Shown here: in pieces, positions 4,512-35,318 of the stretch
How positions within the stretch are numbered: the first letter of the stretch is position 1
Layout of the letters: each line of letters opens with the position of its first letter
Assembly (NCBI GenBank): GCA_937922785.1
Contig: CALAJQ010000007.1
Span: 1 to 64,000 of the forward strand
DNA length: 64,000 bases
Direction: 5' to 3'
Origin: an uncultured Acidimicrobiales bacterium
Lineage (GTDB): Bacteria; Actinomycetota; Acidimicrobiia; Acidimicrobiales; SZUA-35
Notes under the pieces: model-generated
Databases searched by the model: none
Seen by the model: the letters and a program-made list of their open reading frames with translations, nothing else
Told to the model about the DNA's origin: nothing
Program-made: the position numbers and the translations under genes

Positions 4512-5277
4512 GGAACTCGGGCGTCTTCTTCTCGGCGAAGGCGATCATCGCATTGACTGTGTCTTCGGATCCGAAGTTGACTGTTTGTGAAGCCCCTTCG
4601 AACTCGAGCGCTTCAGCCATCGAGCGGTTCAGTGATTGGTTCAGCATCATCTTGGACTGAGCGAGTGCTAGCGGAGGACCCGCAGCCAGCCGTTGGGCCC
4701 AGTCGTCAACGAATGCATCCAAGCTCTCGCCGGGCACGACCCGGTTCACGATGCCAAGCCTCTCTGCCTCGGCCGCGTCGATGACGTCGGCAAAGAACGC
4801 GAGTTCCTTCGCTTTGTGAAGCCCGACCAGGCGGGGCAGTAACCAGGATCCGCCGAAGTCCAGAGACAGCCCACGAGAGGCGAAGATCTCAGAGAACCTA
4901 GCCACGTCTGAGGCAACTATTAGGTCACAGCCGAGGGCAAGATTGCAGCCCGCGCCGGCTGCGACGCCGTTCACCTTCGCAATGGTTGGCTGTGGCAGAT
5001 CGTGTAGGGCTAGCGCCGTAGCGGTGATCTTGCGCATCGCAGTGAGCTGATGAGGGCGAGGTCCGTCGCCGCGGGCGGTCAGGTCGGCACCGCTGCAAAA
5101 GCCTCGACCCTTACCAGTAATGACGAGCACGCGAACATCGGAGTCAGTTCGGATGGCTTGGAACGTTTGGTGCAGCTCATCCCACATTGTTTGATTGGCG
5201 GCGTTCAGCTTCGTTGGCCGGTTCAGCGTAAGAGTTGCGATACCAGTGGAAGATGTTTCTAGCTCAAGTGTCTCCAT
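4501..5277 (-). CDS. Enoyl-CoA hydratase/isomerase (crotonase family)
   Basis: A 258-residue crotonase-fold protein of normal length. The first oxyanion-hole segment is GRGFCSGADL and the second is NGVAAGAGCNLALGCDLIVAS. Where mitochondrial hydratase has its second catalytic glutamate, this protein has SLDFGGSWLLPRLVG, with aspartate, as in PaaG-like isomerases and hydratases. Hydration of an enoyl-CoA or double-bond isomerisation are both possible. It is the first gene of the leftward operon with the monooxygenase and glycosyltransferase. The ATG is at 5275-5277; the promoter should lie in 5278-5460, a region filled with short tandem repeats. Confidence 0.85.
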   Translation of the reverse strand: METLELETSSTGIATLTLNRPTKLNAANQTMWDELHQTFQAIRTDSDVRVLVITGKGRGFCSGADLTARGDGPRPHQLTAMRKITATALALHDLPQPTIAKVNGVAAGAGCNLALGCDLIVASDVARFSEIFASRGLSLDFGGSWLLPRLVGLHKAKELAFFADVIDAAEAERLGIVNRVVPGESLDAFVDDWAQRLAAGPPLALAQSKMMLNQSLNRSMAEALEFEGASQTVNFGSEDTVNAMIAFAEKKTPEFHGR

Positions 5278-5320
5278 CCCTAAGTTGTTAGCCCGTCAGT
5301 GGCTTCAACACCAGTTCAGG

Positions 5321-5403
5321 CCTCCACCTAGATACCTCCACCTAGATACAGAGTTCCTGGCACCTAGATACAGAGTTCCTGGCACCTAGAAAGAACTTTC
5401 TGG
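5321..5403. repeat. 22-bp tandem repeat in a divergent promoter region
   Basis: A 22-nt unit starting CACCTAGATACAGAG is present as two exact adjacent copies (5339-5360 and 5361-5382). A diverged third copy (5383-5403) contains AGAAAGAACTTTCT, which can fold into a hairpin, and a partial copy lies to the left from 5325. The array sits between the divergent enoyl-CoA hydratase gene and the TasA-like/signal peptidase operon, so it could influence transcription of either. Confidence 0.9.
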
Positions 5404-5460
5404 AGGTGCTTTGGCGCTGGTAAGTGAGCCGAACGGCCCATTCGACACCCAGGTAGGCCC

Positions 5461-6117
5461 ATGGGTGAGATTATTCGTCATGTTTCTGCTTGCGATGCCG
5501 AGAAAATACCTATGGAGAAGCCCATTGACTCGCGTATGGCTTTGGCGACCGTTGCCGCAATTGCGCTTGCTGTCACGCTTCTCTACTCGGTTCGGACTTC
5601 AGGCGCTCAATTCACAGCGCGTACTGAAAACTCCTCCAACGAGTTTTGGGCCGGTCAAATCGATGTGACAACCAATCTGGTTCAACCCGTTCTCCTAATC
5701 TCCGACGGCATCTATCCAGGTGTCCAGATCACCGAATGTATGGAGGTCTCATACGTCGGAACGGTTGAGTCAGTTTCAACCCGGATGTTCGCAAGCGCGC
5801 TCGACGGCGGGCTGGGGGACTACCTGGACATCAGAATCGACAGCGGCGTAATGCGATCCGACTCTGGAGGCAACACCAACACCAACGGCACGGACTCGTG
5901 CGAGAGCTTTGAAGCAGCGGCCCAAGGATCATCGGTCTTTGACGGCACATTGGCCGATTTCGCTCAACGTCACGGGACCTACGAGAACGGGTTCGATCTT
6001 GGACTTACCGATCCCGGAGACACGATCGCTCTGCGGATCACGGCCGAAGTTCAAGACAACAACGAAGCGCAAGGCTTGTCAGCTGACTTCAGTTTCTTCC
6101 TTGAGGGTCGCCCGTGA
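5461..6117 (+). CDS. TasA/camelysin-like exported protein A
   Basis: A 218-residue exported protein. A hydrophobic stretch (about residues 26-45, MALATVAAIALAVTLLYSV) is followed by GAQFTARTENSSNEFWAGQIDV. That layout resembles the alternate signal of SipW-processed fibre proteins, where a helix precedes a TasA-like beta domain. Two cysteines (ITECMEVSY and DSCESF) may form a disulfide. The end, VQDNNEAQGLSADFSF, matches the end of the paralogue at 9199-9810. The stop codon overlaps the start of the signal peptidase fusion gene (GTGA). An ATG at 5512 is an alternative start; 5461 has AGG-rich sequence just upstream. The fibre-subunit role is inferred from homology and context. Confidence 0.75.
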   Translation: MGEIIRHVSACDAEKIPMEKPIDSRMALATVAAIALAVTLLYSVRTSGAQFTARTENSSNEFWAGQIDVTTNLVQPVLLISDGIYPGVQITECMEVSYVGTVESVSTRMFASALDGGLGDYLDIRIDSGVMRSDSGGNTNTNGTDSCESFEAAAQGSSVFDGTLADFAQRHGTYENGFDLGLTDPGDTIALRITAEVQDNNEAQGLSADFSFFLEGRP

Positions 6118-9100
6118 TTCTTCTGTCGCCCAAAAAGGCAAATCCGACTCCCGACGAATCGTCTGAGGCGCAACAGGACTCGGTGGGCGACGAGGGCCAT
6201 GACTCAGTTGCTCAGGTCGGAGCCGAACAACACGCCTGGATCAAGCAAGGTGTTATTCCGGGCGTTTGGCTCATGGTGTGGGCTTACCTCTATCTAACCG
6301 CCTTGTTGCTTATCTGGACTGCGATTACAAGTCTCGCTACCGGTTGGAGCCCGGTTGTCATAACCGAGAACTCAATGCAACCGACGCTGTCTCCCGGCGA
6401 TGTGATTCTGACCGAGGACCCGGCTGAGATCGAACTTGGTCAACGGGCAGTCATCACCTACGAACAGCCACCAGGTTCGGGCCAGTTTGTCACTCATCGA
6501 GTCATCGCTGCTGAGGCTGATGGGCTTCGGACCCGAGGTGATGCCAACTCCGTACCGGACGCATATGTAGTTGATCTGAGTCAAGTTGTGGGCGTAACCC
6601 GGATGGTCGTTCCATACGTTGGTTTGCCCGCAGTTTGGTTGCAGAGCAAAGCCTATGTGCCATTTGCGTCATGGCTAATCTTGACGGGTTGTGCGCTCGT
6701 GCTTGCCCTAAATCGGCAGAAGAAGGCGAGCAAAGAAGAAAGAGAACCCAGCCCGCCGATTGCCCAAAAAGCGATTCGTCGAGTTCGAGTCTTAGTAGCA
6801 ATTCTAATTGCCGCGCAGTTCATCATCGATCCGACCAGACTGGACTTTGTTGGTCCTGGCGGGCGGCTTGCAGTATTGATCATGTCTGTGGCTGCGTTGT
6901 CAGCCACCAACGTGATGTCTTCGATCGCCGAAACCGAAACAAACATGCGTCGCTTCCTAGACCGCGTACCGGTTCTCGAGTTGGTGCTGGACTCTGTTCT
7001 CGTGTTGGGCTTGACCGCAGCCACTGGCACTGACGGGATTGGCTGGGTTCTCTTTGCTCTGCCGATCATCGAGGCCGCAACTCGCTTCCGCCTAACCGGA
7101 GCTCTTCTTCACTGGATGATGCTGACCGGAGCCACCCTCGCTCTCCAGATCATGGTTCTGCAACAGAGTGGCAAGCCCAGCACGCTGTTCCTTGCCGCGT
7201 TGGAACAAACTCTCGATCAGCTGTCGGTGCTACTTCTTGTTGTTCTGCCCGGTGCCTATTTGGCGGAACAGTTGATGAGCGAGGTTGCGTTGCAGAGATC
7301 ATCAGCGGGCGAGGCGGCGGACAGAAGCCAGCTGCTTCAAAACGTGGTGGAGTCCTCTGAAGATGTGAACCGCCTTGGCCTCGATGTGTCTCAAGGACTG
7401 GTAGACGCGGTTCTCAAACTTGGCTTCGACGTAGCAGAGGTTGATGTGTACAAAGCCGACGGAGGCTACTGGGAAACCGTGGCAGTCTCGTCAAGCCTTG
7501 GCTACCTCCATCTACCGGTTCCTGGTCAGCCCGCCAGCGGTCTACGCGAGGGAGAGCTAGCCAACGAACGCGTCGTAGTTGATCTTCGAGAAAAAGACCA
7601 GGCTGAAGTCACCGCATTGATCGATCACGGGCTCTCCTGTGTAGTCCGGATGACCTGGCCCCAGCCCAACGGCGAGCTAGCCGCAGTTCGAGTCGGCAAA
7701 GCAACAGGTAGTGAGATTCGGTCGTCTCAGCTTGAAGCGCTATTGCTATTGGTTAGCCAAGCAGTGGTGGCCAACCAGAACGACAAGCTCGTGACTGAAC
7801 TTCAAGAGATGCACGATCAGATCTCGATTCAGGCGAACCGGGATTCACTAACTGGTCTACCCAACAGGCTCAAGTTCATGCGAGACCTGAGCGCCGCAGT
7901 TGATGCGGGTCAAGAAACATCAGTGTTGTTTATGGACCTGAACGGATTCAAGGCAGTTAACGACACGCTCGGTCACGACGTCGGTGACGACGTATTGAGA
8001 GCGGTCGCTCGACGACTAGAACCAGTCGTTACTGACTTCGGAACCTTGTGTCGACTCGGCGGCGATGAGTTCACGATTCTGATGAACGGACTTGCCCCTG
8101 GTGGCGCCTTGACGCTGGCCGAAAAGGTCACTGAATCAGTTGGGCAGCCGATCGAAGTAGCAGGGGAGCAGATTCAGCTCGGGATTGCGGTAGGAATTGC
8201 GCTTTCCGAGCCCGACCTTGGCTACACCGAAGTCCTGCGAAGGGCCGACCTGGCCATGTACTACGCAAAGGCCGAAGGTGGCCGCAATATCGCCTTCTAC
8301 GCAAAAGAGATGGAAGAGTCCGAAAGTCGTAAGGCCAAGATGCAAACCGGGATTGGTTCCGCAATTCTGGACGAGAGCCAAGTCGAACTTCACTATCAGG
8401 CCATCGTCAATGCCAAGAGTCGCCGTGTGGCCGGCATGGAAGCCCTGCTCCGATGGGACCATCCTGAGCTGGGCCCAATTAGCCCCGGCGATGCGATCCT
8501 GGTTGCCCAGCAAAGCGGAGTGGCCGACGAGCTCACTAAGCGAGTTCTCAAACTTGCACTAACCGAATGTAAGAGATGGCAGACCGAGCTTGAGCACCCG
8601 CCAGCCTATGTGTCGGTGAACGTGTCTCCCTTCGAGTTGGAATCGGCCAGGTTAGTTCGCAACGTTGCCCTTGCCCTCGCCGAACTTGACCTCGCTCCAC
8701 GCCATCTAAAGATCGAGTTGAGCGAGAAGATTTTGGGTCCCGATGAGGGAAGCTATCGACGCAACATCGACGGTCTGCGCAAGCTCGGAGTAGTTGTCAC
8801 CCTGGACGACTTCGGCGAGGGACGCACCTCGCTGGCTCACCTCCGTGGGCTGCCTATCGAAGGACTGAAGCTCGATCGATCTCTAATCACAAACAGCATC
8901 CGTTCCGAAAGTGACCAGATCATTTTGGATTCGATCACAAAGCTGGCCCATGGCCTCAAGTTCGAAGTTGTAGCCGAGGGCGTCGAGACCCCCGAGCATC
9001 TAGTTCGCGTTCTTGCTGCGGGCTGTGACTATGTCCAGGGTTATCTATTCTCCAAGCCGCTTCAGTCGGTCGACGTCGACGACTTCTTGCTTCAAATGAA

Positions 9101-9209
9101 GTCCAAAGAAGTCTCTGCACATCTGGATCAAGAGGTGCCTGCATCGCCGGCGGATATCAGCGCAAGCGAAGTCGAGCGACTACAGACAGGGGCACCTGAT
9201 GGCTCGTAA
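6114..9209 (+). CDS. SipW/ER-type signal peptidase I fused to GGDEF and EAL domains
   Basis: A 1031-residue membrane protein. Residues 50-75 are a membrane helix. Residues 82-170 form a type I signal peptidase of the ER/SipW class, with Ser87 in ENSMQPTLSPGD, His128 in VTHRVI (histidine in place of the bacterial lysine) and Asp143 in RGDANSVPD. A second helix follows at about 181-199, then some six hydrophobic segments (224-385) and a region of about 150 residues that could be GAF-like. The GGDEF domain (575-730) has an intact GGDEF at 649-653 and metal Asp608. The EAL domain (740-995) has EALLRW at 776-781 plus Asn836, Glu868, Asp898/Asp899, Lys919, Glu955 and Gln975. The inhibitory RxxD site is absent. 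Start is GTG at 6114, overlapping the previous stop. It probably matures the neighbouring TasA-like proteins and makes or degrades cyclic di-GMP. Confidence 0.9.
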   Translation: MILLSPKKANPTPDESSEAQQDSVGDEGHDSVAQVGAEQHAWIKQGVIPGVWLMVWAYLYLTALLLIWTAITSLATGWSPVVITENSMQPTLSPGDVILTEDPAEIELGQRAVITYEQPPGSGQFVTHRVIAAEADGLRTRGDANSVPDAYVVDLSQVVGVTRMVVPYVGLPAVWLQSKAYVPFASWLILTGCALVLALNRQKKASKEEREPSPPIAQKAIRRVRVLVAILIAAQFIIDPTRLDFVGPGGRLAVLIMSVAALSATNVMSSIAETETNMRRFLDRVPVLELVLDSVLVLGLTAATGTDGIGWVLFALPIIEAATRFRLTGALLHWMMLTGATLALQIMVLQQSGKPSTLFLAALEQTLDQLSVLLLVVLPGAYLAEQLMSEVALQRSSAGEAADRSQLLQNVVESSEDVNRLGLDVSQGLVDAVLKLGFDVAEVDVYKADGGYWETVAVSSSLGYLHLPVPGQPASGLREGELANERVVVDLREKDQAEVTALIDHGLSCVVRMTWPQPNGELAAVRVGKATGSEIRSSQLEALLLLVSQAVVANQNDKLVTELQEMHDQISIQANRDSLTGLPNRLKFMRDLSAAVDAGQETSVLFMDLNGFKAVNDTLGHDVGDDVLRAVARRLEPVVTDFGTLCRLGGDEFTILMNGLAPGGALTLAEKVTESVGQPIEVAGEQIQLGIAVGIALSEPDLGYTEVLRRADLAMYYAKAEGGRNIAFYAKEMEESESRKAKMQTGIGSAILDESQVELHYQAIVNAKSRRVAGMEALLRWDHPELGPISPGDAILVAQQSGVADELTKRVLKLALTECKRWQTELEHPPAYVSVNVSPFELESARLVRNVALALAELDLAPRHLKIELSEKILGPDEGSYRRNIDGLRKLGVVVTLDDFGEGRTSLAHLRGLPIEGLKLDRSLITNSIRSESDQIILDSITKLAHGLKFEVVAEGVETPEHLVRVLAAGCDYVQGYLFSKPLQSVDVDDFLLQMKSKEVSAHLDQEVPASPADISASEVERLQTGAPDGS

Positions 9210-9810
9210 GCTCGATCTGACCGAATTCGCAGCGGCCGATGGCTACGGCGAGCGTCGCTTGGCCCGCTCTACCGCACGAGCGTTCGCAGCAGCAGTGTCG
9301 GTTCTGCTAATCACAACGCTTGTAATTGATCGCTCAACCAAAACCGTCGTTGGCGAGGGCACAGTCTCGGCCAGCTCGGTGGACGCCGGAACACTTCGGC
9401 TTTACGACGACGACGGCGGACAGTCGCTGTTTGACCTGGGGGCAATGGTTCCGGGTCGAGCCGAGGAACGCTGTCTGACGATTACCTACGACGGCGACGT
9501 TCTACCGGTAGATCTGTCGTTAGTAGCAGCAAGCAGCGGTTCCCTCGACGAATTCTTAGACATCACAGTTGAGCGAGGAGTTGGCGGCTCGTTCGACTCC
9601 TGTGACGGTTTTGAACCCGAAGAGGAAATCTTCGCTGGCACGCTCGCTGAGTTTGCAGCCGAGGGTGAGGCCGGCGCTCTGCCGGTAGGAGTGATTAGAA
9701 ACCAAACAGACGCAGTCAGCTTCAGGTTCAACTTCGAACTCCAAGACAACAGTGAGGCGATGGGGCTTAGCTCATCAGTCGACTTCGCATGGCAGGTGAC
9801 CCCATCATGA
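9199..9810 (+). CDS. TasA/camelysin-like exported protein B
   Basis: A 203-residue paralogue of the protein at 5461-6117. A charged N-terminus precedes a hydrophobic helix (about 25-45), then a beta domain containing GTLRLYDDDGGQSLFDLG, PGRAEERCLTITYDGDV and a second cysteine in FDSCDGF. Shared with protein A are the two cysteines, an F-x-GTLA-x-FA segment and the final QDN-E-A-GLS motif. Such segments are typical of SipW-dependent fibre and matrix proteins in Gram-positive bacteria. The start overlaps the fusion gene by 11 bases and the stop overlaps the next start by 4, so the operon is translationally coupled. Probably a secreted structural subunit; polymerisation is inferred. Confidence 0.75.
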   Translation: MARKLDLTEFAAADGYGERRLARSTARAFAAAVSVLLITTLVIDRSTKTVVGEGTVSASSVDAGTLRLYDDDGGQSLFDLGAMVPGRAEERCLTITYDGDVLPVDLSLVAASSGSLDEFLDITVERGVGGSFDSCDGFEPEEEIFAGTLAEFAAEGEAGALPVGVIRNQTDAVSFRFNFELQDNSEAMGLSSSVDFAWQVTPS

Positions 9811-10382
9811 GTCGAATCTCAGGTATCGCAGTACTAATTGTCGTTCTATTGGGGGGAGTCTGGCTGTTCGGAACCCAGGATCAATCGGGAGCGACGCTGT
9901 CAGACTCTGAGGCTGTCCGCAGCAGCATCCAAGCCGAAACCGTGGACATCTCGATATCAGACGTTGACGGCGCTATCGCCACCTTCACGCTCGAGAACAT
10001 GGCCCCTGGTGATGAGTTCCGAGGCGAAATTGTAATAGCAAACGGTGGTGGTGTTCCTGTGCTGTACGGCATCACTTCTGAAGCTGACCCCAGTCCACTA
10101 AATGACCTTCTTGTTCTCAATGTTTGGACCGGACCTGGTCGGTGCGACGTGGGCGAGCTACCAACCAGTCTGGTCTTTTCAGGCGCCTTAAGCGATGCCA
10201 CGTCTGACGTTATAGGCGAGATGGCGACTCAAACTAACTACCGGCCATTGGGTGAAGGTCAGTTTGAAAGCATCTGTGCCCAGATCACGTTGCCGCTTGA
10301 AGTTGGAAACGAAGCCCAGAACCAGATCAGCCGCCAAAGGTTCACGGTGCTGGCGATTCAGGACGTGGCAAACACCCAATAG
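9807..10382 (+). CDS. TasA-like exported protein C
   Basis: A 191-residue exported protein. The ATG at 9807 overlaps the preceding TGA (ATGA), so it is chosen over the in-frame ATG at 9789. An N-terminal helix (SGIAVLIVVLLGGVWLF) is followed by a beta domain with FTLENMAPGDEFRGEIVIAN, a pattern common in TasA/camelysin and in alternate-signal exported proteins. Cysteines lie in GPGRCDVG and FESICAQ. It is more distant from proteins A and B than they are from each other, so it may be a minor subunit, anchor or assembly factor (compare TapA in Bacillus, by analogy only). It is the last gene of the operon. Confidence 0.65.
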   Translation: MSRISGIAVLIVVLLGGVWLFGTQDQSGATLSDSEAVRSSIQAETVDISISDVDGAIATFTLENMAPGDEFRGEIVIANGGGVPVLYGITSEADPSPLNDLLVLNVWTGPGRCDVGELPTSLVFSGALSDATSDVIGEMATQTNYRPLGEGQFESICAQITLPLEVGNEAQNQISRQRFTVLAIQDVANTQ

Positions 10383-10386
10383 TCTG

Positions 10387-10432
10387 TTTCTTCTGGCGGC
10401 TGCCGCTATTTCTTTTGGCGGCGACTGCCGCC
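10387..10432. repeat. Imperfect tandem duplication with GC hairpin at convergent gene ends
   Basis: TTTCTT[C/T]TGGCGGC(GAC)TGCCGC occurs at 10387-10406 and 10409-10432 with one mismatch and a 3-nt insertion. The second copy folds into a 7-bp hairpin (TGGCGGC/GCCGCCA, 10416-10433) and encodes the C-terminus of the leftward DsbA-like gene. It may help terminate transcription from the TasA-like operon. Confidence 0.75.
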
Positions 10433-11191
10433 ATGCCAATCCTCGGTTACTCCTACATCACCCGGATTCACCCCATAGGCCCGCAGTTGAGGACGTTCTC
10501 GAAGGCTGCGCTTAAGTTCAGCGAAGCCCTCAAATCGGGCCAGCTTTACCACCGCGTCCCACAGTTCTACAGCTTCGTCGGGAGACGGAATCCTGCTTAT
10601 GACCGGTCCGAAAAACGCTGCCCCATCAGGTGGGTCATAGGCGATAATCGGAGTCCCGACGTCCTTGCCGCAAAGGCCCAACGCTTCCTCGGTCTCAGCC
10701 TCGATAACGGCATCCCAATCCAGATTGTCGGCTTCACCAGCGAGCTCGGTATCAAGACCTAAACCGTCAAGGATTTCGGCTATGAACCGCACCGACCCGA
10801 GGCGCTGTCTCTCGGTTGCCTCGTCATCAGCAGGCGGTCGATCAAACACAGCGGCGCCAAAGGCGTCATAGAGCCCTCCCATAGCTTCGCGTCCCTGCTG
10901 TTCTCTCAGCGCTGCTGCCACCCGCAGCATCCGAAGACCAGCAGTGTGGCCAGCCTCGTATTCCGGCGGAAAGTGGCTGTCATAATCAACGTTCTTGTTC
11001 AAAACTCGCAGCGAAATGAAGCGCCAATCCACCTCGTAATTGCGCTGCCGCTTCACCTCATTTATCCACCGAGACGTGATCCATGCGAACGGACAAACAG
11101 GGTCCCAGTAGAACCAGATATCTGCTTTATCATGAAGGGGAGGTGGTTGGAGTGATTCCATCAGATCAAATCTATTGGTATCTCCACCCAT
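10406..11191 (-). CDS. DsbA-family thioredoxin-fold protein (Rv2466c-like)
   Basis: A 261-residue protein whose WFYWDPVCPFAWITSRW segment resembles the active-site region of the actinobacterial mycothiol-dependent reductase Rv2466c and its relatives. The usual C-x-x-C is reduced to CPFA, so only the first cysteine remains, compatible with a monothiol, mycothiol-linked mechanism. A helical insertion and a cis-proline-type VGTPIIAY segment follow as expected. The start at 11191 gives a short unrelated tail; the internal ATG at 11159-11161 is equally plausible and leaves more room for the divergent ClpN gene's promoter. The function as a reductase or nitroreductase is known only for relatives. 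Confidence 0.75.
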   Translation of the reverse strand: MGGDTNRFDLMESLQPPPLHDKADIWFYWDPVCPFAWITSRWINEVKRQRNYEVDWRFISLRVLNKNVDYDSHFPPEYEAGHTAGLRMLRVAAALREQQGREAMGGLYDAFGAAVFDRPPADDEATERQRLGSVRFIAEILDGLGLDTELAGEADNLDWDAVIEAETEEALGLCGKDVGTPIIAYDPPDGAAFFGPVISRIPSPDEAVELWDAVVKLARFEGFAELKRSLRERPQLRAYGVNPGDVGVTEDWHGGSRRQKK

Positions 11192-11226
11192 ACAGAACTA
11201 GCCCCCGACCAGCCGATAAAGAAAAC

Positions 11227-11655
11227 GTGTTCGACCAGTTCACCCCCGAATCCCGCCACTCGCTCCTGTTTGCCCAACGACGCGCTGCAGCGCGATACAA
11301 GAACAACATCGATGTGCCCGACCTTCTCCACGGGGTCCTCGCCGACGGCGTTTGGGCCTCCACCTTGCTACTTAGCGTCGGCGCCTATCCCGACGCGGTT
11401 ATGGCTCCGTTGATCCTTCGAGGCGCGCCAAGGTTCTACGAACCCGAGACGCCCATGGACTTCACGTCTGAAGCTAGACGGGCGTTGGGTCGATCCAAGA
11501 AACTTGCTGATCGGTACAGCCATCAGGCAATCACCTCAGCTCACATTTTGGTTGCCTGTCTCACAGTCGGGGACCCCGAAGTCGATGAGATCGCAAAGGC
11601 CCACGAGTTAAGCTCAGCTCGCCTTGCCGCTGAACTGGACGTCAGGTTCGACTGA
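11227..11655 (+). CDS. Stand-alone Clp N-terminal domain protein
   Basis: About 142 residues containing two Clp-N repeats: FTPESRHSLLFAQRRAAARY-x-DVPDLLHGVL, and FTSEARRALGRSKKLADRY-x-ITSAHILVACL. There is no AAA+ ATPase domain, so it resembles ClpS/ClpC-associated or orphan ClpN proteins that may act as adaptors or substrate receptors. The open frame extends upstream to 11083, but that part overlaps the divergent DsbA-like gene and is not conserved-looking. The GTG at 11227 starts right at the domain and is preferred. The binding partner is unknown. Confidence 0.7.
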   Translation: MFDQFTPESRHSLLFAQRRAAARYKNNIDVPDLLHGVLADGVWASTLLLSVGAYPDAVMAPLILRGAPRFYEPETPMDFTSEARRALGRSKKLADRYSHQAITSAHILVACLTVGDPEVDEIAKAHELSSARLAAELDVRFD

Positions 11656-11843
11656 CTTTGCCGTTCCCCGGCCACGGAGGCCGCCCGGGTTACGGTTTGC
11701 TGGTCGGGACGACTGGCTTGGTGTCTTGAGGTGGCGAGGCCGCGTTGGTTGGGGTTTGTGGGTCGGGTTGAGAAGGTGGTAGCGCTTGGTCTTTAACCGT
11801 GTAACACTTCGATCCGTTTAGTCATCAGAACAAAGGGTTTGTT

Positions 11844-12803
11844 ATGCGAGTCGGTTTTATTGGACTGGGTAATGTGGGCGCAAAGTTGGCCGGGTCGCTG
11901 CTGCGTAACGGCGTGGACTTAACCGTTCGCGATCTCGACCGCGAAGCTGCGCAACCTTTCCTGGATATGGGAGCCAAATGGGCCGACTCTCCTTATGACA
12001 TGGCCACCGAATGTGACGTAGTTATAACCTGTCTACCTTCTCCTGCCGCCTCGGCCGCAGTCCTTGAGGCCGACGACGGCCTGATCGCCGGGTTCGCTGC
12101 GGTTGATGAACCACGCGTCTGGGCCGAGATGAGCACAACCGATGAAGCAGAGGTCCTTCGGTTAGGGGAGAAGGTTTCAGCAGTCGGAGCTGAACCGGTG
12201 GACTGTCCGGTTAGCGGCGGTTGTCACCGGGCTGCCACCGGGAACATCGCGATCTTTGCCGGGTGTGAGCGGAAAACCTTTGAGGCAATGTTGCCGCTTC
12301 TAACCAAGATGGGACGCCGAATCCTTCACACCGGTGGACTGGGCTCGGCCTCAATCCTTAAGGTCGTCACTAACTATCTGGCAACTGCAAACCTAGTTTC
12401 TGTAAGCGAAGCACTTGTGACTGCCGAACGGGCTGGCATGGATTTGAGCACCACCTATGAGGCAATCAAGATCTCATCCGGCAATAGCTTCGTCCATGAG
12501 ACCGAATCTCAAGTGATCTTGAACGGAAGTCGAGACATCAACTTCACAATGGACCTGGTGCTGAAAGACATTGGACTTTTCCAGGCCGTGGCAGACAGGA
12601 ACAATGTTCCGCTAGATGTTTCCCCCGTTCTTATCGACGTATTCGAAGACGCCGCCGAACGTTACGGAATGCGTGAGTGGTCACCGAACGTGATTAGAAG
12701 GCTTGAAGATGCAACCGGGGCGTCGGTGCTGGCCGACGGGTTCCCGCCGGAGATGGTGGATGATGAACCCGAAGAGCCCGGCTATGAGATCAAGCCTAGG
12801 TAG
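11844..12803 (+). CDS. 3-hydroxyisobutyrate dehydrogenase-family oxidoreductase
   Basis: A 319-residue NAD(P)-dependent beta-hydroxyacid dehydrogenase. The Rossmann motif GFIGLGNVG is at the N-terminus, the substrate loop is DCPVSGG, and the catalytic lysine is in GSASILKVVTNYLA. Family members oxidise 3-hydroxyisobutyrate, tartronate semialdehyde or related acids, or act as imine reductases. The C-terminal tail (EPEEPGYEIKPR) is an acidic extension. AAAGGG lies about 8 bases before the ATG. The 188 bases upstream are G/T-rich and contain several G-runs (about 11748-11772) but no gene. Its neighbours do not reveal the substrate. Confidence 0.8.
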   Translation: MRVGFIGLGNVGAKLAGSLLRNGVDLTVRDLDREAAQPFLDMGAKWADSPYDMATECDVVITCLPSPAASAAVLEADDGLIAGFAAVDEPRVWAEMSTTDEAEVLRLGEKVSAVGAEPVDCPVSGGCHRAATGNIAIFAGCERKTFEAMLPLLTKMGRRILHTGGLGSASILKVVTNYLATANLVSVSEALVTAERAGMDLSTTYEAIKISSGNSFVHETESQVILNGSRDINFTMDLVLKDIGLFQAVADRNNVPLDVSPVLIDVFEDAAERYGMREWSPNVIRRLEDATGASVLADGFPPEMVDDEPEEPGYEIKPR

Positions 12804-12845
12804 GCGGATCCACTCGATCCTCAGAATGATCTTCGAGTAGCTGAT

Positions 12846-14054
12846 CTACTGGTAGGTGATCATCACTGGAGGTGTTGACAACAACGTCATCACTTCAGTG
12901 GGTGTCATAACCCGAGTGTCTTCGTCGATGAACAGTTTGAACCCGCCCCGCCAAGGTGACTGTGGATGCAGATTCGAGTAAACACCAACCTTGGTATTGG
13001 GGTGCCCGAACCCGTCGATGTGCATCACGTTGGCCAACTCTGGGTGGGCAATCATGTCGGCCTCGTTGATCAGCATCCGGTTCGTAAACTTATGAAGCAT
13101 GAAGATCTTCTGGGGCAGTTCGTTTTCCCTTACGATCTCGGCTAGGTACGCGCTCACCTCATTGATCTCCGCAGCGTCGACCCGGCCGATCACTTTCCCA
13201 GGCACACCACTACCTTGCATGCGCCACTCGGCATCAAGGGCAATACCTACGTCGGGCTCGGTAAGAAATTCCTCGAAGCGCTGAACGTCTCGCAGGAACG
13301 TCGAGCGCCCTGGTTGGAAGTCGAGAATCATGTAACCCCCGACGGCCCGGATCGCTTCAAGGTACTCCCACGCATCTTCTCTGTCGGTCGGAAGGCTGTA
13401 GTTGCCGTCTTGGCCCGGGGCGGGCTGAGCGACAGTCGCGATGTAGTCGAAAGCGGGGACGGCATTGATTCCTGTCTCGGTTGACCACCGTTCAGCTTCC
13501 GCGGCAACCCGCTGGGCCGCTTCGGTTGCTGTGCCCTCTCCAGCAATTCCGAGTTGGTGAGTCGAGCCAGTTCCATAGTGGGCGACAATGACAGTGTCGT
13601 CCCAAAGATTGCCTCGAAGTAATACTGAGTCACAACCCAGTTCGACCTTGTCGGAGTTGCTAGCCGAGATTGCGTCAACGCAAATCTCGCTTCTGCCTGG
13701 TTCAAGGAACAGTCGAGTAGAGAAACCATCTGTTCCTCCCTCAAATCGATACTTGAGGGCCCCGTTGACTCGCATTTCAAGCCGCGCGCCCGCCTGTCTT
13801 GTTTCATCAAAGGCCCAACCTGAAACAACGGCTTCAGAGCCATTCAACACGATTTCGTCCAATTGGCCAATCGGCGTTGCGTCAGCGCTTATTTCAGGCT
13901 CGGGCTCAGGTTCGGTCAGTGGCGTAGCTTCGACAACAGGAGCTGCTGGCTCGGGCAGAACGGGAGTGGAGCCGGGCTTTGTGCCGAGCACAGTTATCAG
14001 TGCGATTGACGCCCCGACAACCACTGCGCTTAGGCGTGCGTCAATAGAAACCAT
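12846..14054 (-). CDS. Exported protein of unknown function with barrel-like C-terminal domain
   Basis: Not recognised. The 402 residues begin with a hydrophobic helix (about 7-25, signal or anchor), then a Pro/Glu-rich linker (30-60) and a small beta domain (65-150) with VVSGWAFDETRQAGARLEMRV. From about 155 a larger domain has alternating strands and helices with acidic residues at strand ends: VIVAHYGTG, MILDFQPGRS, VGIALDAEW, KIFMLHKFTN, VMHIDGFGHP and FKLFIDED. This layout suggests a TIM-barrel-like, possibly glycosidase-like fold on the cell surface, but that is a guess from strand pattern alone. Confidence 0.55.
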   Translation of the reverse strand: MVSIDARLSAVVVGASIALITVLGTKPGSTPVLPEPAAPVVEATPLTEPEPEPEISADATPIGQLDEIVLNGSEAVVSGWAFDETRQAGARLEMRVNGALKYRFEGGTDGFSTRLFLEPGRSEICVDAISASNSDKVELGCDSVLLRGNLWDDTVIVAHYGTGSTHQLGIAGEGTATEAAQRVAAEAERWSTETGINAVPAFDYIATVAQPAPGQDGNYSLPTDREDAWEYLEAIRAVGGYMILDFQPGRSTFLRDVQRFEEFLTEPDVGIALDAEWRMQGSGVPGKVIGRVDAAEINEVSAYLAEIVRENELPQKIFMLHKFTNRMLINEADMIAHPELANVMHIDGFGHPNTKVGVYSNLHPQSPWRGGFKLFIDEDTRVMTPTEVMTLLSTPPVMITYQ

Positions 14055-21953: not shown

Positions 21954-24900
21954 TTAGAGCCCAGCTAGGCGAGAAGTGCCGTCTTCTTCGACCGGAGGTT
22001 CATCGTCGTCTTTGCGACGCTTGCCCATCACAAGGAAGAAGTAGCCAACCAACATCAGCCCGAATGCCAACGTCAGCATGAGTCGAAGCGAGCTGCCGGT
22101 GAAGGCCAGTCCGGCGCTGGCAGAGACTTGGGCAGTAGCTGTGGCGGTGACTATCGCGTCATCCCCGCTTCCGCCCTCGAGCCCACTTGCCGATACCACA
22201 ACGGTGTTAATCGCCAGCTTCTGGTCAGCGGTGACCTTGGTGCGAATCCGAAGTTCAATTGACTCCCCAGCCGGCAGTCCGTCGAGCTCGCACTCGATCA
22301 CTGGCTGCTTGTCAGCTTCTTTGGTCTCAACACATATGGGCGAGCCAGGCACGATGCTTTGAAGCACGTGGCCTCGGGGAATAGCATCGCTGACCGTAAT
22401 GGGGCTGAGGATCGGCTCGGGGCCAGTGTTGGTGATTACGACTGCCCATGTAACTAAATCGCCCGCCTTGAGTGGCGACTTAGAACCCGACTTCGTCACC
22501 GTCAACTCAGCTGAGGGCCGACGTACCTCCACGGCTGCATTTGCGGTTGCAGTTGCCGGGTTGGGGTCCGTCTCTGCACTTTGGGCCGAAGCGGTGTTTG
22601 TGATCACTCCGAACGCCAGGCCGGTCACGTCGGTGACCAGGTTGATCGTTGCAGTTTCCCCAGGAGTAATGTCGGCCACCGAACACTCGACTGTTTGCCC
22701 AGTTGCGGTGCAACGTGGGCTGCTTCCCGGTGAAGAGAAGGTCAGAGTTTCTGGGAGCAGATCGGTGACCACCACGTCGGTGGCAACCGATGGACCCTGA
22801 TTTAATATCTCGATCAGCCACGTGATTTGTCCGCCCGCCACAGCGTCGTTCGACACAGCGGCCTTGGAGACAGATAGGTCCGCGGTCTGGGAGACGGTCG
22901 TGGAGGTTGATGCCACGTTGTCAGCTTGAGCGGTCTCGCTGGCAGACGAAGACACCACGGCCGTGTTGGTAACAGGCTGTGTGGCCGCCGGATCGACCAG
23001 TGAGTCGAGGACCACCGTCGATGTTTCACCAACAGCAAGATCGCCTATCTGGCAAGTAACTACTTGTCCGGCAGCTGAGCAGCCAGAATCAAGCGAGTTG
23101 ATTGTCAGCTCTGACGGCAGTTCGTCAGTAATGACGACGTCTCGGGCTAGGCCTGGTCCGTTGTTCAACACTTGAAGCGAGAAAGTGAGACTCTCGCCGG
23201 CCACTACGGTCGAGGCTGTTGACTTGGTCAAACTGAGGTCTGCAAGCTCAGATACGACCACATCGGTTGACGCCGTGGGGTCAGTGTTGGTGTTTGTTTC
23301 AACCGTGGCCACTTCAGCAGCGTTGGTGATTGTTCCCGTGGTCGACGGATCAATATCGATTCCTATGGAAACCGACCCGGTAGAACCAGCGGCGACCGAG
23401 GGCAGTGGGCAACTTACCGCCGCGCCAGTTAGAGAACAGCCCGGGGAAGATAGACCAGGATTAAACGCAGTGCCCGCAGGAAGTACGTCTGTAACGGTCA
23501 GTCCGTCTGCGTCTGACGGACCCGCATTGCTTGCGACGATGTCATAGATAACTGAGTCGCCGGCGCTTGCGTTGGGGTCAGAAGTGGTCTTGGTTATGGC
23601 TACGTCAACGAGCCGCTCCACTGGCGTCTCGCTTTGGCCAGTGTCGTTGGCACCGTTGCTATCGGGCTCGGCGGCGCTGACGGCAACGTTATTGTCGAAG
23701 TTTGAGCCGTCAACTAACCAGGGCTCAGGTGTCACATCAATTGTGATGAGCTGTGAAGATCCTGCTTCCAACGTGGCAAATTCACACGTCACTGCACCAG
23801 CGCTGGCAACACATTGTTCTGAAGGCTCGACCGAGTCGATAACGCTGCCCGGTGGCAAGGCATCGATTAGAGACACTGTGGATGCGTCAGAGGGGCCATC
23901 GTTGACCACTGAAATTTCGTAGGTAAGCGGCACACCAGGTGTGACTGTCGGAGTGCTTGCCGTTTTGTTCACGCTGAGGTCGGCGTCACGTGAAACAGTG
24001 GTCTCTTCAGTGGCTGATGCTGAAGGCGAACCGTCGCCTGAAACAGTCGCTTGGTTACTCAAGATGGTGCCCTCGGCCAGTGCCGGATCCAAGTCAGCGA
24101 CTATCGCTACTGAAATGCTTTCTCCGACTGCCACCGTTCCGAGATCGCACGATACGGCTGAGCCCACGGCTGAACATGCCGGATCAGATGCGGCTGAGTC
24201 AAACGTTGCTCCGCTTGGAAGGGTGTCAGTGACAACTACGTTGTCGGTGTCAGAAGGTCCGAATGGGTTCCCAACATTTACCGACCAAGTGACTTGTTCG
24301 CCGGCTAGGACTGGGTCGGCCAGGTCGGTTTTCGCTAGCGTCAACCCACTATCTCTGGCAATGTCGACGCTATGAGTTGAGGTGTTGTCGGTGGTGTCGG
24401 GATCACCTTGATCGGCGCTGACCGAAGCTGAGTTGGTCAACACATCTCCATCGTTAACGCTCGAAGACACGTTGACTGCAACTATGGCTGTGTCGGTGGC
24501 AGACACGCTCAAGGTCCCAAAGTCACAGGTAACAGCAGCCCCAACTGCGCTACAACGAGGGTCTGAGTTTGCTGGGTCAAAGGTTGTGCCTGAGGGAAGG
24601 TTGTCGATTGTGGCAACACCGCTTCCATCAGACGGCCCAGCGTTGGCAACCTCGAGCGTCCAGTCGAACGAAGTGCCCGCAGTGATTGGCGCAGAAGGTC
24701 CCTGTTTAAAGACTGACAGGTTGGTTTCCCTAACCACTGTGCCCGACGCTGATGATTCATTGGACGCTGGGTCAATCTCAGTCTCGGCGCTGGCGACGCT
24801 GGCGGTATTGGTGAGAGTGTCGCCCAGAGCAAGGCCAGGGTCAGCATCGCTGCCAACTATCACGGATACGGTCTGGCCCGATGGCAACAAGTCAACCGTG

Positions 24901-27900
24901 CAGGTGACCCCATCTGAGCATCCGGCAGAGCTGAGGTCGGAGCGGAAGGTCAGACCAGTTGGAAGTGTGTCGGTGATCACAAGATCACTGGCGTCTGATG
25001 GGCCGCTGTTGGTCACAGATAGCTCCCACAGGACTTCGCGGCCCGCCACTATTGCGCCAAGCAGGGTCTTGGTCATCTCCAGATCAACCTCGCGAGTAAC
25101 TGCAGTTGAAACCGAGTCAGAGTTGTTGGCTGGCTGAGGGTCTGCGCTGTCACTAGATGCAGAGGCCGTGTTGATGAGACTGGCGTTGTCAGCTGTGTCA
25201 GCACCGACCGTTCCGCTGACCGTTGCTGTAATTGTTTCCCCTGGGGCCAGGGTGGCGGGAGAACACGTGACCGTGCTAGCACTCACAACGCACGAGGGGT
25301 GTCCGGAGACGCTTGCGTTGTTAATCGCCGTTGGTAGAGCGTCAGCCAACGTCGGATTGTCAGCCTGCGATGGGCCGATGTTGATGAACGTCAGGTCATA
25401 GGAAATGATTTCACCGGCAACTGCGGAGGCTGGTCCGACCTTTGAGACTTCAAGGTCTGACTGGCGCACAAAAACCGCTTCGGAGGTGGCAGTGTCGTTG
25501 GCTGGGTTTGGGTCAGTCGTAGCCGCAATTGTTGCTGCGTTGTTAGTAAGCGTGGCGTTGTCGAAGATGGTGGGCGAGGAGTTGAACCCGATTGCGAAGT
25601 TGGTGCTAGCCCCGGCGGGGAGGTTCGCCAATGCGCAGACGGCGGAGCCTGCGGTTGCGGCCGAGCAACGGCTGTCTGATGTAGCGGGATCAAACTCGAG
25701 GTCTGGACCAAATGAGTCGGTGACCTGAATTGACGTTGAGTCTGACGGCCCGAGGTTGGTTACTGAGATCTCCCACTCAACTGGCTGTCCTGGTGTTGGA
25801 TTGGTAGTCACCAGGGTTTTGGTGATGGCGAGGTCAGCTGAGGAGTCGACATCAACCGTCGAGGAATCGGTGTTGTTGGCAAGATCGGGGTCGGTCTCCG
25901 AAGCTGAGATCGAGGCATTGTTTGTGATCTGGCCGTTTGCATCAGGTGTAAGGTCACCGGCGATTACAACAGATGTTCCTGCGCCGCTGCCCAAGAAGCC
26001 GATTACGCAGATGACGTTGCCAGGTGTGGATTCGCTACACCTACTGTCTGAAGCCCCGGAGTTAAAGGTGACGTCACTTGGAAGAGCGTCCAGTATCTCT
26101 ACCGAGGTAGCGTCCGAGGGTCCTAGGTTGGTGGCGGCAAGGGTCCAACTAGTTAGCTCGCCCGCGATGGCCGGGCCGCTGTGATTCTTAACTACCCGAA
26201 GATCAGCCGACCGCGAAGGCGAGATGGTGTTGTTCGCAGTGTTGTTCGATGAGTCAGGATCAGGGGTGGAGGACCCAACGGTTGCGGAGTTGGTTATGGC
26301 AGCGCCGTCCGCAGCGTCAGGGTCCACAGCGAAGGTTACATCGGCGGTGGTTGTAGCTCCCGATGACAGAGAACCGAAGCTGCACTCGACTACAGCGCCG
26401 TTCAGAGAACAAGCGGCATCCGAAGCGCCGGGATCAAACGTCAGACCGTTCGGAACCGGATCGGACACAAGTACTTGCGATGCTTCTGAAGGTCCGGGAT
26501 TGTTGACGCTCAGCTGCCATGTGACAGAGTCGCCGGCAACCGGATTCGGAGTTAGCGAGAACTTCGCAAGCGAGAGGTCGGCCGAAGTAGTGACTGTGCC
26601 CGTGGTCGTGACGATGTTGTCTGAGTTGTCTGGATCGGCGATGCTTGAGTTTGCAAGTGCAGAGTTTGTTACCTGTGTTCCGTCCCCGGTTGTGGCATCG
26701 ATGGCAAAGGCAAGCACAAAGGACTCGCTTGAACCAGCGGCGATTGATGGCGAAGTACATGTCACGGGAGATCCGTCTGTACAGGACGGGTCAGAGTTGG
26801 CCGGCACGAAGGTTGAAATTGAGTCTGGTGCGTCCTCCACTAAGACGTTTCGAGCGTCTGACGGTCCAAGGTTTTCAACTGTGACAGTCCAGAGCGCCTC
26901 GCCTCCGGCCACCACGGGTGAGGTATCAAGAGTCTTGGAAACTACGAGGTTGGCGCTCGGCGACAAGGCAGAGGTGGTAGAAGCGGTGTCATTATTTGAG
27001 TTTGGATCGGTTTCGTTGCCGGCGGCGGTAGCTGTATTGGTGATGTTCCCCGTCGCATCAGAGTCCACGACGGCGGCAATGATTACCGACGACGAAGATC
27101 CAGAGTCGATTGATGCAAACGTGCAGGTGACAACCCCAGGAGATATCTCAACACAGCCCGGACTGGAAGCGCCTGGCGCAAAGGTTGTTCGCGGACTCAA
27201 AGTGTCGGTAACAGTTACATCTGTGGCCTGTGAAGGGCCGGTATTGATTACTCCGACTGACCATTGCGCCAACGCCCCCGGTACGGCTTGGCCGTTAAGG
27301 CTCTTTGTAACAAAGAGATCGGCCGCCCGGATAACGTCAACAGCAGCAGTGCCGGAGTTGTTCGAGCTGTCAGGGTCGGTCTGATCTGCGGAGGCACTAG
27401 CGGTGTTGATTAGCTGGTTTCCGTCAGCAAAGTCTTGCTCTAGCTCGAATGCGATTCGAACGGTCTCCGAGCTTCCCGAAGCGATCGCGCTGATTGAGCA
27501 GACGACGTCAGCACCAGAGGGAGAGCACGACGAAGACGAGTCGGTGGGGTCAAATGTTGCGCCGGCTGGAACAGGGTCGGTTACAACCACGTTGGTGGCA
27601 TCGGAAGGACCCGAATTGGCTACCAGTACTTGGAAAGATGTTCCCTGACCGGCAACGGCCGTGGAGCTGTTGGCAAGCTTGGTTACCGAGAGGTCGCTAC
27701 CTTGAGTGACGGTTCCCTGAGCTGAAGCGTTGTTGTTGGTGGCGTCGGGATCGTCAGTAGTAGCTTGCGCCGACGCTGAGTTGTTTATGGTGGAACCACC
27801 GATGGCTGAAGGTGCGAGATCAAACGCAACATTGGCAGTGGCGGTGCTACCAGCTGCGATAGAGCCCAGGTCACAACTAACAACTGACCCAGCAAGTGAG

Positions 27901-30900
27901 CACCTGGCGTCTGAGCTTCCAGGGCTAAACGTCATCGCTGAATCGAACACGTCGGTAACGATTACCTCGGCAGCGTCGGACGGACCGGCATTTGTGACTG
28001 CGATGGACCAGGTCACGAGGTCTCCCGCTACAACGGGAGAGGTCAGCAGTGTCTTCACGGTTTCGAGGTCGGCCTGAGGGGCCAGGGGAGAGGTAACTGT
28101 GTCTGAGTTGTTCGCGGCGTTTGGATCGGATTCGGACGCGTTGGCCTGGGCATCGTTGGAGAGGTTTCCGGTCTGGTTGGCCGGTATTAGTGCGGAGATC
28201 GTGACAGTGCCTGTGGCGCCTGCTGGAATTGCGGCGATCGAGCACGAAACAACGCCTGGGGTGACCTCGCTGCATGAAGAGTCTGACCCTGCGGCGTCAA
28301 AGTCTACGTTCGGGGCGAGCGTATCGGTGACGGTCACCGTGGTGGCGTCGCTCGGGCCCAGATTCGTAACCTCGACGTCCCACGCAGTTGTAGAACCCGG
28401 CACCGGCGCAGTTCCAGGAGCGGTCTTGTTAACAGAGAGATCAGCCTCGCGGGTGATGCCGACCGAATCCGTGGAGGCATCGTTGGTGCTATCGGGATCC
28501 GCATCGGATCCTGCAACAGTGGCGGTGTTACTAAACGACGATCCAGCCACAAGGTCTGTGGGTGTGAACATGGCGATGGTGAGGTTTGCTCCCGAGCCGT
28601 TCACCAGATCGGAGACACCGCAAGTGATCGTCCCACCGGTTTCGCTACACGAACTGGTGGATGACCCAGCGTCGAAAGAAGCACCGGCGGGAAGGATGTC
28701 AGAGACAACAATGTTGGTGGCATCGGATGGCCCGTTGTTGACCACAACAATGTCCCAGCTAGCTAGTGCTCCTGCGTTAACTGATGCCGCTACCGAGGTC
28801 TTCGTGATCGATAGATCTGCTTGACGCACGACGGTGGTTGACGCGCTTGCCTGGTCGTTTGCCGAATCAGGATCGTCGCTTGTTGAAGTTACTGTTGCTT
28901 GGTTGGTGACGGTTTCACCATCGAAGACGCTTGTGCTGAGGCGACTGACGATCGAAAGCGACGTGCTGGTACCGGCTTGAATCATGCCAATGCCACACTC
29001 GATGTCTCCGCCCACAGGGTCACAACGAGGGTCCGACGGCGCATCCAAGTAGACGAGGTCCGGGCCGAGTGCGTCGGTTAAGGTCACCCCCGACGCATCG
29101 GAGGGTCCAAGGTTCGTGATCTCGACTAACCACTGAGCGTCCTGTCCAGCGACGACTGGGTCGGTAACGGCAGACTTAGTTACCGAGAGGTCGGCGGTCG
29201 GAACCAAAGACTCGGTGGTGGAGTCGGAGTTGTTGCCAGCGAAGGGATCGTCGGTGCTAGAGCTAACTGAGGCGGTGTTTGTCACTGAACCGATCAGCGA
29301 TGACGAAATGTCGGCTGCGATGCTTAGATCTGAAGTTCCACCAGAACTAATGCTCGAGATTGAACACTCAACCACGCCCGGGCTGGCCAGCGAACACGTC
29401 GGAGCGGATTGTCCAGGGTTGAATGTGGTTCCGCTTGGCAACGTGTCGGTAACCACAACGGAAACAGCATCAGACGGGCCGTTGTTCGTGACGGCGACCG
29501 GCCATACGGCTGTGGATCCTGGAACTGGGGGAGTTGGCGGCGAAGATTTCGTGAGGCTCAAGTCGGCCGAGGTGGAAACGGTCACAGTACCTGTTGCGCT
29601 GTTGTTCCCCGCTTGGTTGTCGGTTTCATTAGCGCTCACTGTTGCGGTGTTTGATACCGCCGAACCGTCTGCGAGGTCGGAACTCAAAGTGGTGCTTACG
29701 GTGAAGACAGCTGACGCTCCGTCGGCCAGGCTCGCCTGGGTGCAGGTGACGGTCGTGCCTGACAGTGAGCACTCAGGCGATGATCCAGCTGCGTCGAAGG
29801 TGCGTTCCGGTCCGAGAACGTCTGAAACGGATATCCCTGTTGCGTCTGACGGGCCCAAGTTGTTCACCTGTAACAGCCATTGCACCGTGTCGCCGGCAAC
29901 CCCAGTTGGCTGGCTAGCCGTTTTGGCCAGTGCGAGGTCGGCTTCGCGTTCGACGGTCACAGATGCCGAGGCGGAGTTGTTGCCGGGCGCCGGATCAGGT
30001 TCGGCAGCAGAGCTGGTGGCCGAGTTCGTGATGATGTCGCCAACGCTGGCTCCGGAATCAACTGAAGCGGTGATCGTTGCTTGCACCGACTGGCCAGGCA
30101 ACAGTTGGGAAGCAGAACAGGTGACTGTCTGCCCACTTATGGAACATGTGCCGCCAACAGGCGTGGCCGAAATCGGTGTCAGTTCGGGAACAAAGGTGTC
30201 GGTTAGCGAAACTGCACTCGCTGCAGATGGCCCGCTATTCGTCAGCCTCAACTCATAGGTTGCAGTCCCTCCAGCAACGACGTTTCCGGTTGCGGTCTTG
30301 GTCAGGCTGACATCGGCACTTCGTTCGATTCGGGAACTAGCCGATGACGAGTTATTCGTCGTGTCCGGATCGGCGACGTCCGAGCTCGCCTGCGCATTGT
30401 TGGTGAGAAGCGAACCCTCAACCGCTGTGACGTCAACGTTTGCGACAATGTCAACAGATACTGAATCTCCCGGAGCAATGTCGGGGAGCGAGCATGAGAC
30501 GTTGCTGCCAGTGGCACTACAAAGTGGATTACTGGCCCCTGAGAAAGTGACTCCTGCAGGCAAAGTGTCGGTTATCTCGGTGCCTGTTGCGGTGGAGGCC
30601 CCAGCATTGGTCACCAGCAGGCTCCAAGTTATTGTGCCGCCGGCGTTAACTGTGGCTGGAGCCGTCTTGTCCAATTGAATGTTGGCTGCGGGAATCAGTG
30701 GCGTCGAGTCGCTGCTTTGGTTGTTGGACGTGTCCGGATCGGCGGTATCACTGTTAACAACTGCACTGTTGTTAAGGCTGCCCGTTCTTGTCGGTTCGAT
30801 GTCTACGACGATCACGATCGAGGCAGATTCGGCGGGTGCCAAGTTGCCAAGAACACAAGTGACGGTCCCCGATGGTGCTTCAGAGCATGCCGGTGAGGAT

Positions 30901-35231: not shown

Positions 35232-35318
35232 AGCTATCCCTGTCGGTCCTAATAAGCTGATATTGATAGGTTGCTGGGAACGGTGGCTTGTTGAAGCAAG
35301 GGCTGAAAAGGCGCGAAA

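Follow-up and report, generated by a model that had tools for sequence, protein, structure and literature searches.

An uncultured Acidimicrobiales bacterium (GenBank assembly GCA_937922785.1) encodes a protein in which an endoplasmic reticulum (ER)-type signal peptidase, membrane helices, a GAF-like region and the GGDEF and EAL domains of cyclic di-guanosine monophosphate (cyclic di-GMP) enzymes follow one another in a single chain (6114–9209, + strand). Coordinates refer to the window, the 64,000-nucleotide stretch of contig CALAJQ010000007.1 that was analysed (positions 1 to 64,000 of the forward strand). We hold with moderate confidence that this fusion is a SipW-type signal peptidase dedicated to the TasA-family matrix proteins encoded in the same operon, and that it carries its own cyclic-di-GMP module, for which coupling would be the likeliest use.

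The first-pass annotation, made from the sequence of the window, had proposed one continuous protein of 1031 residues, and the open reading frame at 6114–9209 (+), which starts with GTG and has 0 internal stops, confirms it. The peptidase domain (residues 56–179; 6279–6650, +) reaches 61.9 bits against the NCBIfam model TIGR02228 (signal peptidase I, archaeal/ER type; cut-off 51.85) and 24.9 bits against Pfam Peptidase_S26 (cut-off 22.9). The catalytic residues are those named beforehand, with S87 in NSMQP (codon 6372–6374), H128 in THRV (6495–6497) and D143 in RGDAN (6540–6542), and curated score and Ser/His/Asp set together place the domain among the ER/SipW-type signal peptidases I. The GGDEF and EAL domains had been described as intact, which agrees with our scans. 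By Pfam and alignment, the GGDEF domain (residues 574–723; 7833–8282, +) scores 122 bits (cut-off 23.8) with an intact motif, as expected of a diguanylate cyclase, and the EAL domain (residues 753–982; 8370–9059, +) scores 200.1 bits (cut-off 31.3) with all residues checked in the PDB alignment in place, as expected of a phosphodiesterase; these and the other checked positions are those usually regarded as catalytic. The best solved match, PDB 4rnh ‘Motility regulator’ (MorA), spans both domains (E value 1.1e-73). The NCBIfam LapD model gives 109.1 bits against a cut-off of 1020, and with its intact GGDEF and EAL motifs the protein does not classify as a LapD-type receptor.

The catalytic residues are conserved among relatives. 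All 16 fused-type peptidase domains retain Ser, His and Asp, as do 46 of the 47 peptidase domains overall. The GGDEF motif is present in 13 of the 13 fusion sequences that cover it, and of the 12 that cover the EAL positions checked, 11 have the complete set. The EAL motif itself reads EVL in five sequences of the related genus g9 (L041, L042, L046, L047 and L048). Several rows are partial: L050 contains a run of N and has its peptidase in another frame, L051 and L052 are one fusion of genome G019 split over two contigs, and L053, L042 (G024, stopping inside EAL) and L085 (G353) run into contig ends; all of these rows were counted only for the features that they cover.

The fusion gene lies in a tightly packed operon. 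Upstream is the gene of a TasA-like exported protein of 218 residues, here called ‘up’ (5461–6117, +; profile-profile match to the family profile A5 and its own family profile). Downstream follow the TasA-like protein d1 (203 residues; 9199–9810, +; family profiles), which overlaps the fusion by 11 bases, and the TasA-family protein d2 (191 residues; 9807–10382, +; family profile and predicted fold), which overlaps d1 by four bases. A TasA-like gene stands directly upstream of the fusion in 16 of 16 loci, and in 15 of these its TGA overlaps the fusion start codon by four bases (RTGA, that is ATGA or GTGA); L053 was left out of this count because its ‘up’ gene has an earlier in-frame stop. The offsets for L050 and L053 were read from the printed bases. 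In all 11 start-to-stop proteins the overlap codon opens the fusion frame. Where the contig continues, d1 follows the fusion directly in 13 of 13 loci and d2 in 12 of 12, the d2 of L047 containing a run of N. This supports the earlier proposal of TasA-like genes on both sides in one coupled operon, and because the overlapping TasA-family operon is fixed in relatives, the random variation of neighbours among homologues that had been named as counter-evidence is not what we find.

The TasA-like label given to the small proteins holds for all three neighbours in the window, for ‘up’ and d1 by profile-profile comparison only. The profile of the d2/d3 family (A5) matches Bacillus subtilis TasA structures (8aur, E 1.4e-7; 5of1, E 1.7e-7); of its 18 members, 17 match Pfam M73 at E ≤0.1, 14 match NCBIfam TasA at E ≤1 and eight match the SipW-type signal peptide TIGR04088 at E ≤1. 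The three small proteins of the window themselves gave no TIGR04088 match at E 1. A model of d2 built from the window sequences only (predicted local distance difference test, pLDDT, 62.8) finds TasA as its best VIA-align match (Z 10.9, root mean square deviation 3.0 over 137 residues; next, an unrelated entry at Z 9.0), and the many beta-sandwich proteins that the fold search returned below TasA were taken as common folds. Family profile and fold match together place d2 in the TasA/camelysin family. The profiles of ‘up’ and d1 gave no direct TasA match in PDB; aligned with hhalign to A5 they reach E 3.9e-13 (‘up’) and 1.8e-11 (d1), and to each other E 9.2e-27.

The alignment of ‘up’ also shows a putative cleavage site, between SGA and QF: the aligned P1 position is Ala and P2′ is hydrophobic in 14 of 14 sequences, with Phe at P2′ in four of them, including that of the window. 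According to a published study (PMC10269814), P2′ is likewise Phe in TasA, which SipW processes and Escherichia coli LepB processes poorly. A search of the window's genome with profiles A4 and A5 gave four TasA-family places only, three of them in the fusion operon; the fourth, on contig C15, adjoins the genome's only other ER-type peptidase match. Because of the gene order and the few substrates and peptidases found in this genome, it is likely that the fusion cleaves the products of its operon.

In the part before the GGDEF domain, alignment-averaged hydropathy shows a hydrophobic segment at residues 51–76, a second one with its peak around residue 190, and a group of several from about 225 to 390. 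The segments have ragged borders; the last group is read as six further membrane helices (6786–7283, +), a count estimated from the profile. Two plus six helices would put the peptidase outside and the GGDEF-EAL part inside the cell. The segment with the peptidase catalytic residues is strongly acidic, and its net charge lies between −4 and −9 in all 11 sequences aligned. Residues 400–555 (7311–7778, +) form a predicted cytoplasmic region that can be aligned in all 11 aligned sequences and is GAF-like, an assignment to be read as weak with a Pfam GAF match in one of 11 members (E 0.027). A single-sequence structure model of residues 1–570 had a mean pLDDT of 41 and was unusable.

To establish how far the fusion extends, residues 1–573 were used as query, and the stretch was found in one frame in 11 of the 39 genomes of the window's family. 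Ten of these show the fusion from start codon to stop codon, the eleventh (G024) stopping within EAL where its contig ends, and three more family genomes (G002, G019 and G021) hold the stretch broken by runs of N or contig ends. Together with G061, a genome of another family that also has a start-to-stop fusion, this gives eleven start-to-stop proteins in eleven assemblies, with 974 to 1088 residues, 0 internal stops and GGDEF in each. The order-wide sample (397 genomes) contains the stretch in G061 and in G353, which represent two other families (one of one and one of 19 genomes); the G353 copy stops with its contig before GGDEF. Outside the window's own family no full-length match was obtained in the samples of the class (395 genomes) and the phylum (396 genomes), and within this scope a wide spread of the fusion was rejected. 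For most genomes of the order, class and phylum samples only the best three candidates were scored, with thresholds of 1e-30 for the class and 1e-25 for the phylum, so that rarer or diverged fusions may have escaped the scans and the counts for the order are to be read as minimum values. A first scan of the collection with the whole fusion as query gave a GGDEF match in a Clostridiales genome as its sole match. In a plasmid search with residues 50–400, no record reached 80% query coverage, and the matches listed concerned the peptidase part only, haloarchaeal signal peptidases among them.

In a tree of 47 peptidase domains, 15 fused domains and the contig-truncated L052 form one clade (support 97/90), within which the G061 domain groups inside the window's family. 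Since the G061 assembly is also 6% contaminated, transfer or contamination is possible for this copy. A tree of the helix-GAF-GGDEF-EAL part, from which L053 was omitted, unites the fused rows in only 27% of bootstrap trees and places L083 on a very long branch. The peptidase tree singles out no sister of the fused clade among the unfused peptidases, and neither tree a closest unfused pair. Separate neighbouring genes encode the peptidase and a helix-GGDEF protein in G043, G251 and G266, with TasA-like genes beside them; the unfused partner in G266 stops after GGDEF, and a draft frameshift may have caused the split in G251. In G938, which belongs to another class, a peptidase homologue (E 2.5e-13) without Ser, His and Asp (L107:10140–10730) adjoins an unfused GGDEF-EAL gene (9911–13153 for the locus) between TasA-like genes. 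These arrangements fit an origin of the fusion from neighbouring genes with a shared purpose.

The first-pass annotation had proposed a matrix-export system in which preprotein cleavage and messenger turnover share a membrane sensor, and the conserved fusion and its operon support this in part. For the protein at work we infer the following arrangement. The peptidase active site would lie outside the membrane, where it would remove signal helices from TasA-like subunits during export. The further helices would link it to the GAF-like, GGDEF and EAL part inside, predicted to make and/or destroy cyclic di-GMP in the same place; through the shared membrane part, matrix-subunit export and the messenger concentration nearby would then be mutually tuned. 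Coupling between the two ends is plausible, given that they belong to a single chain and that the g9 operons include a gene for a PilZ-domain protein. The direction of such coupling might run from outside to inside: the peptidase would act as receptor, and its export site, by being occupied or by catalysing, would set local cyclic-di-GMP turnover, and the cell would measure matrix-fibre export and adjust exopolysaccharide or export in the same complex. We put this forward tentatively, as possible but clearly less assured than the dedicated, module-bearing peptidase itself.

Several observations weigh against a coupled TasA-dedicated peptidase. The fusion is sporadic, occurring in 14 of 39 family genomes even with broken copies included and in one of 19 in family f27. 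On its own, the d2 protein of the window scores 16.1 bits against Pfam PF12389 (TasA/camelysin), below the cut-off of 22.5, and although TasA provides the three best Foldseek matches of its model, their template modelling scores are only 0.45–0.49; d1 shows no convincing SipW-type cleavage motif in its sequence. The EAL part of L050 is damaged, with three checked residues deviating, and the inhibitory RxxD site of GGDEF domains is absent from the fusions examined except L044. No PilZ protein is encoded beside the fusion in the eight loci outside g9, and a search of the window's genome with the g9 PilZ protein, run without a positive control, found nothing. The fusion may do no more than co-localise its enzymes.

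Such co-localisation, with one gene and one membrane site and neither end regulating the other, we regard as somewhat unlikely. It draws on the damaged EAL part just mentioned and on the unfused neighbours found in the same setting in other families, which imply that tight allostery may not be needed; on the other side, the several predicted helices and the conserved GAF-like region between the two ends resemble a transmission path. Control could also run from inside to outside, as in LapD, so that cyclic di-GMP in the cell would switch the outer peptidase and the messenger would gate fibre export. LapD is a GGDEF-EAL protein coupled to proteolysis on the other side of the membrane, and the PilZ gene of the g9 operons suggests that operon output responds to cyclic di-GMP there. 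The GGDEF and EAL domains of LapD are degenerate, whereas the catalytic residues of the fusion are intact and its LapD score (109 versus 1020 bits) lies far below the cut-off; signal peptidases are usually constitutive. We judge inside-out control unlikely.

Still less probable is a peptidase domain that acts mainly as a sensor, binding passing precursors that the cell's second peptidase cleaves. The unfused G938 partner lacking Ser, His and Asp would suit such a role, as would the second ER-type peptidase on C15 in the window's genome, but all three catalytic residues are retained throughout the fused-type domains. Draft genomes, with G061 contaminated as described, leave room in principle for a chance fusion or an assembly artefact without meaning, the latter an outcome that the first-pass annotation had itself named as refuting its proposal. 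The same start-to-stop frame in other genomes shows that the fusion is neither chance nor assembly error, and with eleven such proteins from eleven assemblies, a fixed gene order and one supported clade this explanation is contradicted and was rejected as extremely improbable.

Further genes, which a reading of the window alone could not reveal, accompany the operon in relatives. In seven of the eight g9 loci (L041, L042 and L045–L049) it opens, before ‘up’, with a gene for a membrane protein; PilZ scores over its cut-off in three of four scanned proteins and at 21.9 versus 22.5 bits in the fourth, and the remaining three of the seven were assigned by similarity only. The PilZ motif RxxxR plus DxTxxG is visible in the alignment. 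For the other part expected of a BcsA-like PilZ glycosyltransferase, the glycosyltransferase 2 model reaches at best 24 versus 27 bits, with no match in two of the four scanned, and no PDB match was found at E 0.01. In the window's genome (G000), which has 28 GGDEF matches, the only PilZ match is short and lies elsewhere. Upstream of the operon, perfect short tandem direct repeats (5321–5390) have 14-base and 22-base units with CACCTAGATA in common and possibly mark a regulatory region; no sigma-70-like promoter was found in window positions 5200–10700.

A second ER-type peptidase gene, for a longer protein, follows d2 in 11 of 12 loci, the exception being the window's genome, where such a gene (L054, 8854–12603, with LamG and DUF2341) and a TasA-like neighbour lie on contig C15. 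Behind the second peptidase, Pfam finds LamG and DUF2341 in L045 and L048 and nothing in L040; L041, cut by its contig, retains the peptidase only. ER-type peptidases joined to exported parts were seen in L054, L045, L048, L056, L057, L059, L109–L112, L119 and L120, with LamG, DUF2341 and FG-GAP parts identified by Pfam, and RCC1-like repeats (L109) and the L110–L112 parts by eye. Such proteins are apparently peptidases joined to their own substrate, with a putative second SipW-type signal helix between. Examples on Arthrobacter and Pseudarthrobacter plasmids stand behind a TasA-like gene and are annotated by their cargo only. Elsewhere in the window (21954–35357, − strand) lies the gene of a repeat protein of 4467 residues, in which 32 DUF11 stretches precede a LAFTG-like C-terminus followed by a hydrophobic helix. 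This C-terminus and the named Actinomycetota records of peptidase-cargo proteins hint at an Actinomycetota-like genome, though weakly, since haloarchaeal peptidases matched as well.

Known systems share parts of this design. The tapA-sipW-tasA operon of B. subtilis likewise encodes an ER-type signal peptidase beside TasA-family matrix proteins; SipW is not known to carry GGDEF or EAL, whereas the fusion has peptidase and cyclic-di-GMP module in one chain. PDB 4rnh and similar GGDEF-EAL proteins have the same tandem catalytic domains but are not known to include a signal peptidase part. LapD and LapG resemble the fusion in linking cyclic-di-GMP domains across the membrane to surface-protein proteolysis; LapD differs in that it is a receptor with degenerate domains and its protease is another protein, while the fusion has intact motifs and its own signal peptidase. 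WP_239437835.1 (Arthrobacter alpinus) and WP_191082201.1 (Pseudarthrobacter) share the N-terminal ER-type peptidase and the preceding TasA-like gene, but there the partner is an exported part and not a cyclic-di-GMP module. The earlier statement that no example had been described agrees with our search: among the matches listed, titles and abstract starts of the open-licence literature contain no description of a peptidase-GGDEF-EAL fusion, an absence that is not proof.

SipW of Bacillus, according to a review, is the TasA peptidase with a second role in surface-adhered biofilms (PMC4238804, citing Terra 2012). With a SipW-type peptidase covalently and conservedly fused to cyclic-di-GMP enzymes, a direct signalling route becomes open to test, and the place of the fusion amid fibre-type genes points to a link between export and signalling. 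If this holds, TasA-type fibres of another bacterial group would come under cyclic-di-GMP control, and the processing of export substrates would join the possible inputs of GGDEF-EAL proteins; should the peptidase prove to be a receptor, cyclic-di-GMP signalling would gain an input of a new kind.

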